Positions 54,311 through 61,417 of a stretch of 61,417 nt of DNA are shown piece after piece. The notes under the pieces were generated by a model. It was given only the letters and a program-made list of their open reading frames with translations. It was not told the DNA's origin and did not search any database. Every line of letters begins with the position of its first letter. Position 1 is the stretch's first letter. The stretch is from Gemmatimonadota bacterium (GTDB lineage Bacteria; Gemmatimonadota; Gemmatimonadetes; Longimicrobiales; Gaopeijiaceae): assembly GCA_003248075.1 (NCBI GenBank), contig QJYK01000099.1:1-61417 (forward strand). Reading direction: 5' to 3'. The position numbers were made by a program, and so were the translations under genes.

Positions 54311-54919
54311 TCAGTACTTGCGGATCACACCGACGACCACGCCCTGGATCTGGACGTCGTGGCCGTCGACGACAATGGGCTGCATGGTCGGATTGGCCGG
54401 CTGCAGTCGGATCCGGCCGCCGGGCTCACGATAAAGCTTCTTCACGGTGGCCGCGTCTCCGCCCACGAGCGCCACCACCATCTCCCCGTCCTCCGCGGTG
54501 GGCTGGGCCTGCACGACGATGTAGTCCCCGTCGCGGATCTGCTCCTCGATCATCGAGTTCCCCTCGACGCGGAGCACGTAGTTCTCTTTCTGGCGGTGGA
54601 CCATGTCGGGGGGAACCGACACTGTTTCCGTGTCCGGGATCGCTTCGATGGGAACGCCCGCCGCTACCGCGCCCAGCAGGGGAAGGTCCATGGTGGGCGC
54701 ACCCAAGCCCTTGTGTATCAACTCGATGGAGCGGCTCTCGTTGTAGGACTTCCGAATGTAGCCCTTGCGCTCCAGATTGCTCAGGTGCTCGTGGACGGTC
54801 GCCAGCGACGAGTACCCGAACGCCTCGGCGATCTCCTCGAAGCTCGGCGCGTAGCCACGCTCGGCGATGAACCCCTCGATGTGATCGAGGATCTCCTTTT
54901 GACGCTTTGTCAGGGGCAT
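54311..54919 (-). CDS. lexA: SOS response repressor LexA
   Basis: LexA represses DNA-damage genes and inactivates itself when RecA filaments form. The 202-residue protein has an N-terminal winged-helix DNA-binding domain (LTKRQKEILDHIEGFI; SFEEIAEAFGYSS recognition region), the cleavage site Ala87-Gly88 in AVAAGVPIEA, and the catalytic pair Ser122 (VEGNSM) and Lys160 (ATVKK). It diverges from trpC over a 60-bp gap carrying two likely operators. It interrupts the trp gene run. Confidence 0.96.
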   Translation of the reverse strand: MPLTKRQKEILDHIEGFIAERGYAPSFEEIAEAFGYSSLATVHEHLSNLERKGYIRKSYNESRSIELIHKGLGAPTMDLPLLGAVAAGVPIEAIPDTETVSVPPDMVHRQKENYVLRVEGNSMIEEQIRDGDYIVVQAQPTAEDGEMVVALVGGDAATVKKLYREPGGRIRLQPANPTMQPIVVDGHDVQIQGVVVGVIRKY

Positions 54920-54945: not shown

Positions 54946-54989
54946 CCCGAATAGCCACCGAAAGAAGGATACCCGAACGTTGCCCGAAA
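54946..54989. promoter_or_regulatory. Two direct-repeat boxes, probable LexA operators
   Basis: On the plus strand CCCGAA-N6-CCGAAA occurs at 54946-54963 and again at 54972-54989, 26 bp apart. All 12 half-site bases are identical and all 6 spacer bases differ. In the lexA direction this reads TTTCGG-N6-TTCGGG, an 11-bp-period direct repeat with the geometry of the alphaproteobacterial GTTC-N7-GTTC LexA box. The second box also covers the trpC start codon. Confidence 0.6.
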
Positions 54990-54994: not shown

Positions 54995-55807
54995 GGCTCG
55001 CATGCGCTGCCGGGCATCCTGGCCACCATCGTCGCGCGCAAGCGGGAGGAGCTGTCGGAGCTCCGCCGGAACGCACCCGCCATCGAACGCGCGGCGGCCC
55101 GGGCCGCCCCTCCCCGGGACCTGAGGGGAGCGCTCCGTCGGGAGGGTGAGGTCGCACTCGTCGCCGAATGCAAGCGGCGATCGCCAGGGGCCGGGGAGAT
55201 CCGCCCGGGGCTCGACCCGGGGGACCTCACGCGGCGATACGAGGGCGCCGGTGCGGCGGCCCTGAGCGTCCTCACGGACGGGCCCTTCTTCGGAGGCTCG
55301 GCGGACGACCTGGTCCGGGCGCGGTCCTCCGTGGGGATCCCGGTCCTGCGGAAGGACTTCACGCTCGACCCGATCCAGGTCGTCGAGGCCCGCGCCATGG
55401 GTGCCGACGCCGTCCTGCTGATCGCGCGGATTCTGGACGACGGAATGCTGACGCGCCTCGTCAGGGAGGCGCGCGATCGGGGCGTCACCGCCCTCGTAGA
55501 GGCGCACGACGGGGTGGAGGTAGACCGGGCGCTGGCGGCCGGGGCCCTCGTGGTGGGGATCAACAATCGCGATCTCGCGACCTTCGGCTCGGACCTGGAG
55601 ACCACGTTCGCGCTTCTGGAACGCGTTCCGCCCGAGGTGGTGGTGGTCTCGGAAAGCGGCATCCGCGAGCGGGAAGACGTGCGGCGCCTCGGAGCAGCCG
55701 GGGTGGACGCGGTCCTGGTGGGGGAGGCGCTGCTGCGCAGCGACGACCCTGCGGCCGCGGCGGCCTCGCTGACCGGTGTGCCCAGGAGCCCACGCTCCCA
55801 TGGGTGA
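54980..55807 (+). CDS. trpC: Indole-3-glycerol phosphate synthase TrpC
   Basis: TrpC closes the indole ring in tryptophan synthesis. The 275-residue TIM barrel has LVAECKRRSPGAGEIRP near residues 58-74, PVLRKDFTLDPIQVVEAR, GINNRDLATF and VVSESGIREREDV. The TTG start at 54980 is supported by AGAAGGA about 10 nt upstream; no later in-frame ATG or GTG precedes the conserved core. The start lies inside a putative LexA box. Confidence 0.93.
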   Translation: MPETQGSHALPGILATIVARKREELSELRRNAPAIERAAARAAPPRDLRGALRREGEVALVAECKRRSPGAGEIRPGLDPGDLTRRYEGAGAAALSVLTDGPFFGGSADDLVRARSSVGIPVLRKDFTLDPIQVVEARAMGADAVLLIARILDDGMLTRLVREARDRGVTALVEAHDGVEVDRALAAGALVVGINNRDLATFGSDLETTFALLERVPPEVVVVSESGIREREDVRRLGAAGVDAVLVGEALLRSDDPAAAAASLTGVPRSPRSHG

Positions 55808-56483
55808 GGCCCCCCGCGTCAAGATTTGCGGGATCCGAAGGAGGGAGGACGCGCTCGCGGCGGACCGTTTGGGCGCAGACTATCTCGGCGTGGTCCTTTC
55901 CCCGGGCTTCGGGCGGAGCGTCGAGCCGGTGTCGGCACCGAGCCTGGTCGAGGGTGTGGACGCGACTCTCGTCGCGGTGCTTGTGGACGAGGCACCCGAG
56001 CGCGCGGCCGAGCTGGCGACCGCGTTGGGGGCGGGCGTGATCCAGCTCCACGGGACCGAGTCCCCCGAGGAGGTCGCGAAGCTGGCGGGGCTCGGACCCT
56101 GGGAGCTCTGGAAGGCCGTGCGCGTCTCCCGCGTCGCCGATGTGGAGGGCACCAGCCGACGCTACGCCGGGCTGGTCACGGCACTCCTGGTCGAGGGACA
56201 CCGGGCGGGCGTGGTGGGAGGAGGGGGCGTGGCGGTGGATGCCGCCCTGGCCGAAGCCGTGCGCGCCGCCCTCGCGCCGGGGCTCGAGCTGGTCCTCGCG
56301 GGCGGGCTCACGCCGGAAAACGTGCGTGGTGCCGTGGCACGGTTCGGACCCGACGTGGTAGACGTAAGTTCGGGAGTGGAGAAGGTGAGGGGGCGGAAGG
56401 ACCCCGAGCTCCTCCGGCGCTTCATCGAACGGTCACGGCACCCCTTCGAGGAGCCTTCGAGCCCGCGCCGGTGGAGGGAGTGA
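55800..56483 (+). CDS. trpF: Phosphoribosylanthranilate isomerase TrpF
   Basis: TrpF converts phosphoribosylanthranilate to CdRP, the TrpC substrate. The 227-residue TIM barrel has [13 protein letters not shown] near residues 7-19 (catalytic Cys), [35 protein letters not shown] and [16 protein letters not shown] with catalytic Asp. The ATG at 55800 overlaps the trpC stop by 8 nt; a GTG at 55776 is an alternative. It is coupled to trpB. Confidence 0.94.
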
Positions 56484-57688
56484 AGGAGTTGAAAGAGACC
56501 CTGGTCGACAAAGGCCGGTTCGGGCCGTACGGGGGCCGTTACGTGCCCGAGACCCTCGTCCGCGCCCTCGAGGAGCTCGAGGCCGCCTACGAGACCTCGA
56601 TCGCCGACGCGTCGTTCCGGGTGCGGCTGGAGGCGCTGCTCTCGGAGTTCGTCGGCCGACCCACGCCCCTGTACCGGGCTCGGCGGCTGGAGGAAGCGTC
56701 GGGTCACCCGGAGATCTACCTGAAGCGTGAGGACCTGAACCACACCGGGGCCCACAAGATCAACAACACTCTGGGACAGGCCCTGCTCGCGCAGCGGATG
56801 GGAAAGCGGCGCATCATCGCCGAGACCGGCGCGGGTCAGCATGGCGTGGCGACCGCCACCGCGTGCGCCCTCCTCGACATGGAGTGTGTCGTGTACATGG
56901 GCGAGGAGGACGTGGCGCGGCAGGCCCTCAACGTGTACCGGATGCAGCTCCTCGGAGCCGAGGTTCGACCGGTAGGCTCCGGGACCCGTACCCTGAAGGA
57001 CGCGACCAACGAAGCGATCCGCGACTGGGTCACGACCGTCGAGGGAACGCATTACATCATAGGCTCCGTCGTCGGCCCGGATCCGTTCCCGCGGATCGTC
57101 CGCGACTTTCAGGCTGTGATCGGGCGTGAGGCGAAGGAACAGATCCTGCAGCGAGCCGGGACGTTACCCGGTGTGGTGATCGCATGCGTCGGAGGCGGCT
57201 CCAACGCGATGGGCATCTTCCACGAGTTCATCCCTGACGAGGCCGTCGACCTCGTTGGCGTCGAGGCCGCCGGGGAGGGGCTGGGCACCGGTCGTCATTC
57301 CGCCTCGCTGGCGGCTGGCCTTCCCGGTGTTCTTCACGGCTCACTCAGCTATCTTCTTCAGGACGACGGCGGCCAAGTCGCGCCCGCCCACTCGGTCTCG
57401 GCGGGGCTCGACTACCCTGGGGTCGGACCCGAGCACTCCTTCCTCATGGACTCCGGCCGCGCCACCTACGCAGCGGTGACGGATGCGGAGGCATTGGATG
57501 CATTCCACCGGCTCTCGAGGCTGGAGGGCATCATCCCGGCGCTCGAATCCGCCCATGCGGTCGCGTGGGTCCTCCGCGAGGGCGCGGGACGGGCGGGAGC
57601 CGGCCCTCTGCTCGTCTGCCTCTCGGGGCGGGGGGACAAGGACGTGGCCCACGTGGCCCGGATCGAAGGCCGTGAGCTCGTTCTTTAG
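56480..57688 (+). CDS. trpB: Tryptophan synthase beta chain TrpB
   Basis: TrpB joins indole and serine with PLP. The 402-residue protein has [16 protein letters not shown] near residues 11-26, the PLP lysine in [32 protein letters not shown], and [13 protein letters not shown]. The GTG at 56480 overlaps the trpF stop (GTGA). A TTG at 56489 has better-spaced GGAGGGAG and is a fair alternative. Its usual partner trpA lies 3.2 kb downstream after two unrelated genes. Confidence 0.95.
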
Positions 57689-57697
57689 GGATTCGAC

Positions 57698-59449
57698 GTG
57701 AACGAGCTCGATCCCCAACCGGGGGGCTCGGTCCCCGAGGCGTCGGACTGGAGCGATTCGGCGGTTCTTCCGGTGACCTCGGTTCGCGAGCTGTTCGTCG
57801 TGCTCGGCAAGGCCTTTCGCGCCTACCAGCTCTACGACGAGAACAATCCGGTCCGCCATCGGTTCATGGAGAGCCTGCGCCAGTCCTTCCAGGGGCTGTG
57901 GAACGAGACGGATCGCCTCACGCTGGTCGTGGAGGAGGACCGGATCCGGCTCGGCGACGAGGACGTGTACCAGTCGGACAGCCGCTCGGAGTCCCTGGCG
58001 TTCCTGTTCTACAAAGACGGTGTGCGTGAGATCACCTTCCTGCCCGGCATCGAGTCCGGCGAGCTGGAGAAGTTCCTGGGAGTGCTCCAGAGCGCGCGCA
58101 AGCTCGTCCCGGAGGGCGATGATCTCCTGACGGTCCTCTGGGACCGCGACCTGCAATTCTTCGCCTACAAGTACGTGGACTTCCTCGCCGAAGGCGTGGA
58201 CCTCCCGGTCCCCGGCGACGGGGCCACGCGGGAAGCGCTCCAGGGAGTCCTCCACGGAGAGCTGCCCGAGGGAGCCGAAGAGGAGGGAGCCGAGACCCGG
58301 GCCGAGGGCGATGGGGGTGATCCGGCCGCGAGATCGGTCCGTCAGGACGATTTCAATCCGACCCTCTACGCGCTGGACGCCCGGGAGATGGATCTTCTGC
58401 GGCGCGAGCTCCACAAGGAGGTCTATCGCGACCTCCGTGGGGACGTGCTGTCGGCGCTCTTCGACCGGCTGGAAGAGGCCGACAAGCCCGGGAGGCAGAG
58501 CGAGATCCTGCAGATTCTGGGCACGCTCCTGCCGACCTTCCTCAGCCGCGGGGGCCTCACGGCGGCCACCCGCGTCCTCGAGGAGCTCCGCGGCCTCGAG
58601 GCGCGACCCGACATCTTCGACGACGAGCGGAGGGCGCTGTCACGCTCGCTCCTGGACGCGGTCAGCTCGCCCCAAGCCATCGACGAGCTCATCCAGTCGC
58701 TCTACGACGGCTCGATCCGTGCCTCACCGCAGCAGCTGTCCGCCTTCCTTCGGTTTCTTCGCTCGGCGGCCATCTCTCCGCTCCTGCGCGCGGCGGAGAC
58801 GGTGGACCACAAGGAGCTTCAGGCCGTGCTCCGTGCCGCGGTGCATGGGATCGCGCAGCGGAACCGAGCGGCGGTCGTGCGCCTGCTCGAGGAGCCCGAT
58901 CCGATCATCGCGGCCGGCGCCGCCCGTCTGGCAGGCGCGATCCAGATCACTGAGGCGGGCCCGGCCCTGGCGGGGCTGCTGGCCCACCCCGATCCCGCCG
59001 TGCGGCTCGCGGCGGTGGAGGCGGCCCAGAGCCTGAAGGCGTCCACCGCTGCGGGTGCGCTCACACACACGCTGGACGACCCGGAACGGGATGTCCGTGT
59101 CGCCGCGGCAAAGGCCCTCGGGACCCTGAAGTACGCTCCGGCTGCCAGACAGCTCCAGGACATCCTCGGGGCCAAGGAGATCCGCGAGGCCGACATCTCC
59201 GAGAAGCTCGCCTTCTTCGAGGCGTTCGCGCGCATCGGCGGCGAGGGGTCGGTGCAGTTCCTCGACAGGATGCTGCATTCCAGGGGGTTCTTCGGCAAGA
59301 AGGAGCCGTCCGAGATGCGGGCTGCCGCCGCCCTCGCCTTGGGCAGGACGCGTCTCCCGGCAGCCCGCGCCTCGCTCCAGAAGGCGAGTCGAGACGAAGA
59401 CCCCGTGGTGCGCACGGCCGCGAACCGTGCGCTGCGGAGCGAGGAGTGA
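57698..59449 (+). CDS. HEAT-repeat protein with N-terminal domain shared with next gene
   Basis: This 583-residue cytosolic protein lacks a signal or membrane helix. Residues about 27-140 form a globular domain with LYDENNPV (45-52) that resembles the N-terminus of the downstream HD-GYP protein. A charged helical middle follows. Residues about 360-580 are HEAT-type helical repeats (for example HPDPAVRLAAVEAAQSLKA and DPERDVRVAAAKALGTLK). HEAT arrays bind proteins or nucleic acids. It starts 9 nt after trpB and 4 nt precede the next gene. No known function; a regulatory adaptor is inferred. Confidence 0.7.
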   Translation: MNELDPQPGGSVPEASDWSDSAVLPVTSVRELFVVLGKAFRAYQLYDENNPVRHRFMESLRQSFQGLWNETDRLTLVVEEDRIRLGDEDVYQSDSRSESLAFLFYKDGVREITFLPGIESGELEKFLGVLQSARKLVPEGDDLLTVLWDRDLQFFAYKYVDFLAEGVDLPVPGDGATREALQGVLHGELPEGAEEEGAETRAEGDGGDPAARSVRQDDFNPTLYALDAREMDLLRRELHKEVYRDLRGDVLSALFDRLEEADKPGRQSEILQILGTLLPTFLSRGGLTAATRVLEELRGLEARPDIFDDERRALSRSLLDAVSSPQAIDELIQSLYDGSIRASPQQLSAFLRFLRSAAISPLLRAAETVDHKELQAVLRAAVHGIAQRNRAAVVRLLEEPDPIIAAGAARLAGAIQITEAGPALAGLLAHPDPAVRLAAVEAAQSLKASTAAGALTHTLDDPERDVRVAAAKALGTLKYAPAARQLQDILGAKEIREADISEKLAFFEAFARIGGEGSVQFLDRMLHSRGFFGKKEPSEMRAAAALALGRTRLPAARASLQKASRDEDPVVRTAANRALRSEE

Positions 59450-59453
59450 TCCC

Positions 59454-60881
59454 GTGACGGACGGCTCGAAGGGGCTCAACTATCAGGAGGAGGGTCGGAG
59501 GGTCCTGACGGCTTTCTACGGCGCCCTGAATTCGCTGCGCCTCTACCCTCTCGAAAACGATGCCGTACAGCAGGCGCTCGACGAGCTGCATGCGCTGGTC
59601 ACGCGGATTCTCACGATCGAAGGCGATGTCGAGATCCGCATCGTGGGGGACTTCTTCTTTCTGAACGAGACCCGTCTCCGGCTCGATCTCTCGAACTTCG
59701 CGACGTTCGGCTCGTTCTCCCGGGCCCTTCAGGACCACGGAATCGGCGCCGTGGAGATTCGCGCGGGCGTGCAGCGCTCAGAGTGGGCACCGTTCGTGTC
59801 CATCCTCCTCCGCAAGCCGCATGCGGAGGACCCGTTCGAGGCGTTCATGGACCGGCTTGCGGCGGCGCCGGTCCAGCACATCGAGCTACGCCCCGAGAAG
59901 GACGTTCAGGAGCCGGAGAAGGACGAGGAGGCGCTGCTCGCGGCCAAGCGCACGTACGCGCAGTCGGTACAGGTGGCGAAGGAGGTGCTGGGGGACGTTC
60001 GGCTGGGCAAGGCCGTGAACGTACGAAAGGTCAAGCGGTCGGTGCAGGGGATCGTCGACCAGGTGCTGTCCAACGAATCGTCGATGATCACCATGACGAC
60101 GTTGCGGGACTTCGACGAATACACGTTCACCCACTGCGTGAACGTCTGCATCTTCAGCGTCGTGATGGGACAGCGCCTGGGGCTCGACAAGCACCAGCTG
60201 TACGAGCTGGGGCTGGGAGCGCTCTTCCACGACATCGGCAAGCAGCTGGTCTCCCGCGACATCATCAACAAGCCTGGAGGCCTGACCGACGACGAGTGGG
60301 TGGAGCTCAAGGAGCACACCACGGAAGGCTTGCTCCAGCTGTTCCGTCTACACGGATTCGTGGACGTGCCGTACCGGCAGATGCTCATGGCCTACGAGCA
60401 CCACATGAAGATCGACCTGACCGGCTACCCGCAGAACACCCGGCCGCGCGAGCTCTCCCTCTTCTCCCGCGTCGTGGCGGTCGCGGACGCGTTCGACGCG
60501 GCGACCTCGGTGCGCAGCTACCAATACAACCCCTGGCCGCCCGACGCGGTGCTGCGTGAGATGCGTGACAACCCCAAACGCGGCTTCGACCCGCTCCTCG
60601 TGAAGGCGCTGATCACGGCGACCGGTGTCTACCCGATCGGGACTCTGGTCATCCTCGACTCCCACGAGATGGCGGTGGTGTCGGACGTGAACAAGGACCC
60701 CAACCTCCTCCACCGTCCCAGGGTCAAGATCATCTCCGATCCCCTGGGTGTCCCCCTGGTCGAGCCCATTACCCTGGACCTGGCGCGCGACGATCCGGCC
60801 ACGGGCAGGCCGGCCCGCACGATCATCAAGACGACGGACCCGCAGAAGTACGGGATCCAGGTGAGCGACTATCTGACGTGA
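59454..60881 (+). CDS. HD-GYP domain phosphohydrolase-like protein
   Basis: This 475-residue protein has the same type of N-terminal domain as the preceding HEAT protein (LYPLENDAV at 30-38), a charged linker (about 140-180), and an HD-GYP domain (about 215-400). H227, the HD pair H259-D260 with K263 (HDIGK), H316-H317 and GYP at 324-326 are present. The usual HHExxDGxGYP reads HHMKIDLTGYP, so Glu and one Gly are replaced. Active members hydrolyse cyclic di-GMP or related dinucleotides. The GTG follows GAGGAG by 7 nt and the stop overlaps trpA. Confidence 0.78.
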   Translation: MTDGSKGLNYQEEGRRVLTAFYGALNSLRLYPLENDAVQQALDELHALVTRILTIEGDVEIRIVGDFFFLNETRLRLDLSNFATFGSFSRALQDHGIGAVEIRAGVQRSEWAPFVSILLRKPHAEDPFEAFMDRLAAAPVQHIELRPEKDVQEPEKDEEALLAAKRTYAQSVQVAKEVLGDVRLGKAVNVRKVKRSVQGIVDQVLSNESSMITMTTLRDFDEYTFTHCVNVCIFSVVMGQRLGLDKHQLYELGLGALFHDIGKQLVSRDIINKPGGLTDDEWVELKEHTTEGLLQLFRLHGFVDVPYRQMLMAYEHHMKIDLTGYPQNTRPRELSLFSRVVAVADAFDAATSVRSYQYNPWPPDAVLREMRDNPKRGFDPLLVKALITATGVYPIGTLVILDSHEMAVVSDVNKDPNLLHRPRVKIISDPLGVPLVEPITLDLARDDPATGRPARTIIKTTDPQKYGIQVSDYLT

Positions 60882-61417
60882 CGGCCTCCACCATCTCCGA
60901 GGCCTTCGCGCTCCGGGCCGATCGCGGTCAGGCGGCTCTGGTGCCGTATGTCACCGCCGGGCACCCCGACTCCCGGACGACAGTCGATCTGCTGTCGGCG
61001 CTCGCTCGAGCCGGTGCGGACGTGCTCGAGCTCGGGGTTCCGTTTTCCGACCCTCTGGCGGACGGGCCGACCATCCAACGCTCCTCCTTCAGGTCTCTCG
61101 CGTCCGGCACGACCGTGCATTCGGTGCTCGAGGATCTGGCGGCGTTCCGAAGCCAGGCGGGCACGCCGGTCGTGTTGTTCACGTATCTGAACCCCGTCCT
61201 GCGTTATGGGGTCGACCGATTCCTGTCCGATGCGCGGGTGGCCGGGGCGCAAGGCCTCTTGATCACCGACCTACCCACCGGTGCAGACCCGACCCTCGAG
61301 GAGCGGATCCGGGCGTCCGGCCTCGAGCTCGTCCGTCTGCTGGCCCCGACGACCCCGCCCGCCCGCGTGCCGTTGGTGGCGACTTCGGGATCAGGCTTTC
61401 TCTACTACATCTCGCGG
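60878..61417 (+). CDS. trpA: Tryptophan synthase alpha chain TrpA (partial)
   Basis: TrpA cleaves indole-3-glycerol phosphate to indole for TrpB. The first 180 codons are visible and run off the window end. The family motifs VPYVTAGHPDS (about 22-32), VLELGVPFSDPLADGPTIQ with the catalytic Glu near 50 and Asp near 61, and TYLNPVLRYG are present. The last residues SGSGFLYYISR are also typical. The GTG start overlaps the HD-GYP stop by 4 nt (GTGA). Confidence 0.95.
   Translation, partial: MTASTISEAFALRADRGQAALVPYVTAGHPDSRTTVDLLSALARAGADVLELGVPFSDPLADGPTIQRSSFRSLASGTTVHSVLEDLAAFRSQAGTPVVLFTYLNPVLRYGVDRFLSDARVAGAQGLLITDLPTGADPTLEERIRASGLELVRLLAPTTPPARVPLVATSGSGFLYYISR

Follow-up and report, generated by a model that had tools for sequence, protein, structure and literature searches.

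The window, that is the whole stretch of 61,417 nt analysed here, is one whole contig (G000:C217) that ends inside trpA. Its plus strand carries trpC, trpF, trpB, a HEAT-repeat protein gene, an HD-GYP-type gene (hereafter HD) and trpA in this order, with lexA upstream and divergent. The first-pass annotation had placed the HEAT gene 9 nt after trpB and let the HD gene overlap trpA by 4 nt, and both the coordinates and the spacing are correct. The features of the locus are:

54311..54919, minus strand: lexA, divergent; the pair remains beside it where the trp genes are gone
54947..54988, plus strand: four direct repeats of CCGAA, located between lexA and trpC; likely the LexA operator
55776..56483, plus strand: trpF, upstream in the same gene run
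56480..57688, plus strand: trpB, upstream neighbour; start approximate, stop codon at 57686-57688
57698..59449, plus strand: HEAT-repeat protein gene (GTG start, TGA stop, 583 aa), 9 nt past the trpB stop
57761..58183, plus strand: N-domain of the HEAT protein (approximately residues 22-162), from hhalign to the HD N-domain and AlphaFold2 (AF2)
58340..59446, plus strand: all-helical HEAT array (approximately residues 215-583), from Pfam HEAT_2, AF2 and Foldseek to alphaRep HEAT structures
59454..60881, plus strand: variant HD-GYP protein gene (GTG start, TGA stop, 475 aa), with a 4-nt overlap with the trpA GTG (60878)
59475..59903, plus strand: N-domain of the HD protein (approximately residues 8-150), from hhalign; AF2 topology identical to that of the HEAT N-domain
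60114..60623, plus strand: HD-GYP-type domain (approximately residues 221-390), signature HHMxxDxTGYP
60624..60878, plus strand: C-terminal beta-rich domain of the HD protein (approximately residues 391-475), AF2 strands 398-461
60878..61417, plus strand: trpA, cut by the contig end

The first of the two inserted genes encodes a HEAT-repeat protein. HEAT_2 scored 76.6 bits, above the Pfam cut-off, and the AF2 model has the alpha-solenoid fold of HEAT-repeat proteins (helices 228-579), with a low-confidence linker (approximately residues 165-210) separating the N-domain from the array. Bacterial HEAT-repeat proteins and the alphaRep designs have the same repeat fold as residues 215-583; unlike them, the protein described here carries the N-domain and, in the orthologous branch, always adjoins an HD gene. 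Its orthologues are approximately 25-65% identical across the phylum.

It had been proposed by eye that the N-termini of both proteins share a domain. Two-sequence BLASTP of the two N-termini gave no signal (best E = 0.9), so profiles were needed for this claim. With hhalign profiles built from 28 HEAT and 33 HD orthologues, residues 27-134 of HEAT aligned with residues 12-122 of HD over 108 colinear columns (E = 4.6e-7, probability 92.6), and three control pairings gave E-values of 0.32, 0.63 and 0.82; repetition with larger alignments gave 1.7e-6. The alignment pairs LYDENNPV with LYPLENDAV, DGV with HGI and GIESGELEKFLGVL with GVQRSEWAPFVSIL (HEAT and HD protein, respectively), the motif pairs being as first listed. 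A divergent HD paralogue (G031, L230) bridges the two, with E-values of 2.8e-8 to the HD-N and 8.3e-8 to the HEAT-N profile; further paralogues cross-match between these profiles. Separate AlphaFold2 models (mean pLDDT 88.8 for HEAT and 88.4 for HD, the HEAT N-domain being mostly >90) have the same ten-element order, H-H-E-E-E-H-E-H-H-E, over residues 26-159 of HEAT (H26-45, H51-68, E74-78, E82-85, E88-92, H100-105, E109-114, H118-135, H143-150, E155-159) and 10-147 of HD (H10-30, H36-56, E58-64, E67-70, E73-75, H79-94, E97-103, H108-119, H127-137, E143-147). Profiles, bridging paralogue and topology agree in placing both N-termini in one domain family, and the comparison of folds that had been called for bears out the proposal. 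Pfam had no match on the HEAT N-terminus, and searches for a name in NCBIfam and the PDB (by sequence and by fold) matched essentially the HEAT and HD parts. A weak partial match of DUF3391 (PF11871) to residues 91-192 of the HD protein (27.0 bits in the protein scan, where the cut-off is 27.8, and 29.5 bits in the genome scan) covers profile positions 42-135 only, that is the C-terminal two thirds, and much of it lies over linker helices.

The second gene encodes a protein with the HD-GYP fold arrangement, as indicated by Pfam (HD_5 52.6 bits with a cut-off of 27.2; HD 43.9 bits) and by Foldseek matches to 4MCW, 4R8Z and 9RBZ. The closest solved structures are PmGH, Bd1817, PA4781, DvhD and V-cGAP3. 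Fourteen residues are invariant in 60 orthologues (D221, H227, H259, D260, K263, H288, H316, H317, G324, Y325, P326, D345, D348 and R354). Residues were mapped on PmGH by alignment, with roles taken from the PmGH study (PMC4159591): D183, H189, H221, D222, K225 and H250 of PmGH correspond to D221, H227, H259, D260, K263 and H288, and H276, H277, GYP, D305, D308 and R314 to H316, H317, G324-Y325-P326, D345, D348 and R354. The seven shared metal ligands, the catalytic D183/K225 pair, GYP, D308 and R314 (PmGH numbering) are all kept. The fold and metal site are therefore common to this protein and the HD-GYP phosphodiesterases PmGH (4MCW), PA4781 (4R8Z) and DvhD (9RBZ), from which it differs in its N-terminal domain and in having a co-inherited HEAT partner gene. 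Judged from these residues, it is a probable second-messenger-degrading enzyme. Bd1817 (3TM8), an unconventional Bdellovibrio HD-GYP protein of the deviant GYP type, matches the HD model at a Foldseek E-value of ~1e-7, and its sequence similarity is confined to the HD core and the preceding helices.

Of 298 genomes sampled across the phylum, 201 have an HD orthologue (E ≤ 1e-60). In a contig scan of relatives, the best 80 of 443 were Gemmatimonadota contigs or resembled them. The complete trpB-HEAT-HD-trpA order was present in 54 of 80 named loci, neither trp neighbour in seven, and the remainder were cut by a contig end on at least one side. Among the named loci readable on both sides, none had trp on one side only. 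Six more families of the class (f4, f5, f7, f8, f9 and f10) were sampled, and their loci contain the same pair, with an N-domain match on both genes in all except f10, where the HEAT gene is cut by the contig end. The gene order is thus phylum-wide and not unique to this genome. A record titled Gammaproteobacteria (L131) is a typical Gemmatimonadota trp-HEAT-HD locus, and its bin is probably mislabelled.

Association with the trp genes can nevertheless be broken, and in several ways. Where a locus has no trp neighbours, the pair lies mostly between lexA and the usual flanking genes of the trp run, the trp genes having disappeared from around it. Genome G196 lacks both trpA and trpB, and trpA is missing from G084 (1.8 Mb, completeness score 100%), G141 and G220; the HD gene is retained in all four. 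The loci of the latter three read as lexA-HEAT-HD, as does L157, which is probably from the same chromosome as G196, so the pair does not occur only with tryptophan synthase. Where it was read in these genomes, the active site is kept, except for K263R in G084; the G141 protein has P at the position of Y223 in others. In four further genomes (G011, G020, G051, G203) trpBA is located elsewhere and is divergent (TrpB identity 51-65% vs. 71-78% in others), while the pair is still at the old site. The divergent TrpBs of G203, G020 and G051 (L221, L222, L223) form one clade with 99% support, apart from the native TrpBs, which suggests that trpBA was replaced by transfer and the pair left behind. 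Conversely, trpB and trpA are adjacent without the pair in 11 genomes (G006, G009, G012, G015, G023, G025, G026, G029, G033, G038, G042). A scar of 48 residues of the HD C-terminus lies between trpB and trpA in G006 (L235), and the HEAT N-domain and the HD C-terminus remain in G014 (L233), so that loss of the pair was secondary in at least those lineages; perhaps the HD C-terminus persists beside trpA there because trpA translation is coupled to the remnant. An HD C-terminal remnant was also seen in G034 (L234). Because genomes that lost tryptophan synthase kept the pair, the trp link is separable, and the two genes appear to form a signalling pair of their own, outside tryptophan synthesis.

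The two genes behave as a unit. In 59 relatives, both were present in 44 genomes and neither was intact in 15. On the TrpB tree, presence of the pair changed about nine times, at least six of these changes being forced by well-supported branches, and both genes changed together each time. HEAT and HD distances correlated at 0.87 with TrpB held fixed (either with TrpB, 0.19 and 0.22), a soft test that can be inflated since TrpB is much more conserved. The mixed N-domain profile A5 gave exactly four matches in the window's own genome, namely this pair and a pair at C241. Across 24 genomes, 80 of 91 A5 matches fell in 40 co-oriented pairs; as the profile members are themselves in A5, it is best at finding their kind. 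Thirty-eight of the 40 are two genes with N-domains 1.2-1.9 kb apart, and the other two are tandem N-domains within one protein in the order GGDEF-AAA_16-N-N-HEAT (L269:3956-8560, plus strand, 1535 aa; L270:1828-6168, minus strand, 1447 aa). From their domains, these proteins are predicted to be a diguanylate cyclase fused to the same N-domain/HEAT module. Several of the 11 unpaired matches are near contig ends and three are solitary HEAT proteins. The latter, all from family f3, have no HD gene nearby (L271:2698-4224, L272:3353-4960, L273:3697-5415). The pair at C241 (also L232:5132-8640) is a second, divergent HEAT and HD pair with N-domains, next to FtsX and aminotransferase genes; its signature is HHI..DG.GYP and the same type was found in many relatives.

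GGDEF proteins number 0-6 in genomes lacking the pair (0-2 in 11 of 15) and 3-23 in genomes with it. The raw p-value for this association is 4e-8; independent phylogenetic contrasts gave three agreeing and none opposing (p = 0.25), which is not significant, and the association is therefore used as support only. The co-distribution is suggestive of a second-messenger context. An earlier suggestion had tied the module to tryptophan or nucleotide signalling: the signalling half is supported by the HD-GYP-type metal site, the GGDEF fusions and this co-distribution, whereas the tryptophan half is not.

We lean towards the view that the HEAT and HD proteins are the two subunits of a single unit for cyclic-dinucleotide signalling, joined by their N-domains. 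Its basis is the homologous and similarly folded N-domain, joint inheritance, recurring pairing and the kept HD-GYP residues. The HEAT and HD N-domains would bind each other in a hetero-dimer or a mixed higher oligomer, physical pairing being suggested by the genomics, and through this contact the HEAT array would act as an arm that regulates or targets the phosphodiesterase, with the activity or the place of the enzyme set by a ligand or client of that arm. The substrate would be a cyclic dinucleotide, c-di-GMP or cGAMP, and the surrounding trp genes would be an old neighbourhood that shares a transcript with the pair but not its function. In its more general form, this would be a hitherto undescribed family of two-subunit cyclic-dinucleotide phosphodiesterases, widespread in a single phylum and composed of a HEAT sensor or targeting subunit and an HH[MIL] HD-GYP subunit with a duplicated pairing domain that recurs in tandem in the GGDEF-AAA cyclases, a reading to which we give about an even chance.

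Gene pairing could also mean a shared process without contact of the proteins. The N-domain would then be common by descent and each protein would dock on a common third partner, such as a nucleotide ligand or the motor of a secretion system or pilus. The existence of solitary N-domain HEAT proteins speaks for this explanation, and three paralogous pairs (L227, L228, L230) lie near T2SSE-type ATPase or prepilin-like genes, a possible common client, which under the two-subunit reading may be the client of the HEAT arm. The remaining paralogous pairs examined, however, have different neighbours, are not near T2SSE or prepilin-like genes and have no common neighbour that would name a process, while joint loss every time and tandem N-domains in one chain are explained more simply by direct pairing. 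We thus consider a third partner unlikely and lean towards direct pairing of the two subunits.

The nature of the reaction deserves separate treatment, since the HD protein reads HHMxxDxTGYP and not the full HHExxDGxGYP signature. Relative to PmGH, E185 is replaced by Y, HHE by HHM and K317 by Q. HD-GYP proteins without E185 form the group described as lacking the eighth metal ligand (PMC4159591), and the HD protein falls in that group. In each of 14 additional sequences the third signature residue was M, I or L, HH[MIL] replacing HHE in the trp-linked and second-pair branches alike, and DG has become DL in the trp-linked branch. With HHM in place of HHE, the protein is termed an HD-GYP variant and not a canonical member, and its substrate or rate could differ. 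The best PDB match by sequence, the 3'3'-cGAMP phosphodiesterase V-cGAP3 (VCA0931, 5Z7C; E = 6e-31), likewise has Y in place of E185, but unlike the HD protein it has HHE and DG, and its PDB entry names no HEAT partner. Hydrolysis of some different kind of substrate, or binding with no turnover at all, would fit the family-wide HHM/HHI/HHL, the DL and the loss of the guanine contact K317. On the other hand, the HD protein retains the seven metal ligands, D183/K225, GYP and D308 as well as R314, which binds guanine, and alanine mutants of GYP, R314 or K317 do not much lower PmGH activity (PMC4159591), and we find such an alternative distinctly unlikely compared with a cyclic-dinucleotide phosphodiesterase.

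Membership of the pair in the LexA (DNA-damage) regulon, through the divergent lexA promoter, is very unlikely. Where the local trp genes are missing, the pair and lexA are immediate divergent neighbours, and the lexA promoter retains its CCGAA array; however, the array is also present in G006, G009, G038 and G042, all without the pair, and hence belongs to lexA, while the spot beside lexA is simply explained by deletion of trpCFB and second copies of the pair are not known near lexA. A role of the pair in sensing or controlling the metabolism of tryptophan or indole is the least probable reading and was rejected in spite of the phylum-wide order and its tight spacing, as the pair is retained by four genomes that have no trpA (with the HD site kept where read), four with trpBA elsewhere keep it at the old site, many retain trpBA and drop it, and further pairs lie away from trp.

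The literature search found no paper joining Gemmatimonadetes with HD-GYP, and nothing relevant on HEAT repeat, HD domain and c-di-GMP together or on genes inserted between trpB and trpA. The component families are known, while the pair, the shared N-domain and the HHM variant are apparently without description, in agreement with the initial suggestion of an undescribed module. The usual picture of an HD-GYP protein is one chain with an attached sensor; in the present case the arm, be it sensor or adaptor, seems to be a HEAT protein from its own co-inherited gene, joined through a duplicated domain. The locus also advises caution, as operon neighbours can mislead on function: the trp link spans the phylum and can still be clearly separated. 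Through the pair, second-messenger signalling becomes accessible to experiment in a phylum on which the literature search found no HD-GYP work.

Finally, the CCGAA repeats have an 11-bp period within each pair and overlap the likely trpC start. Of 19 relatives, 16 have the four-repeat pattern, nearly always as a single copy per genome, and a reversed control gave 0 matches. The array resembles the direct-repeat LexA boxes of alphaproteobacteria and is probably the LexA operator of Gemmatimonadota.
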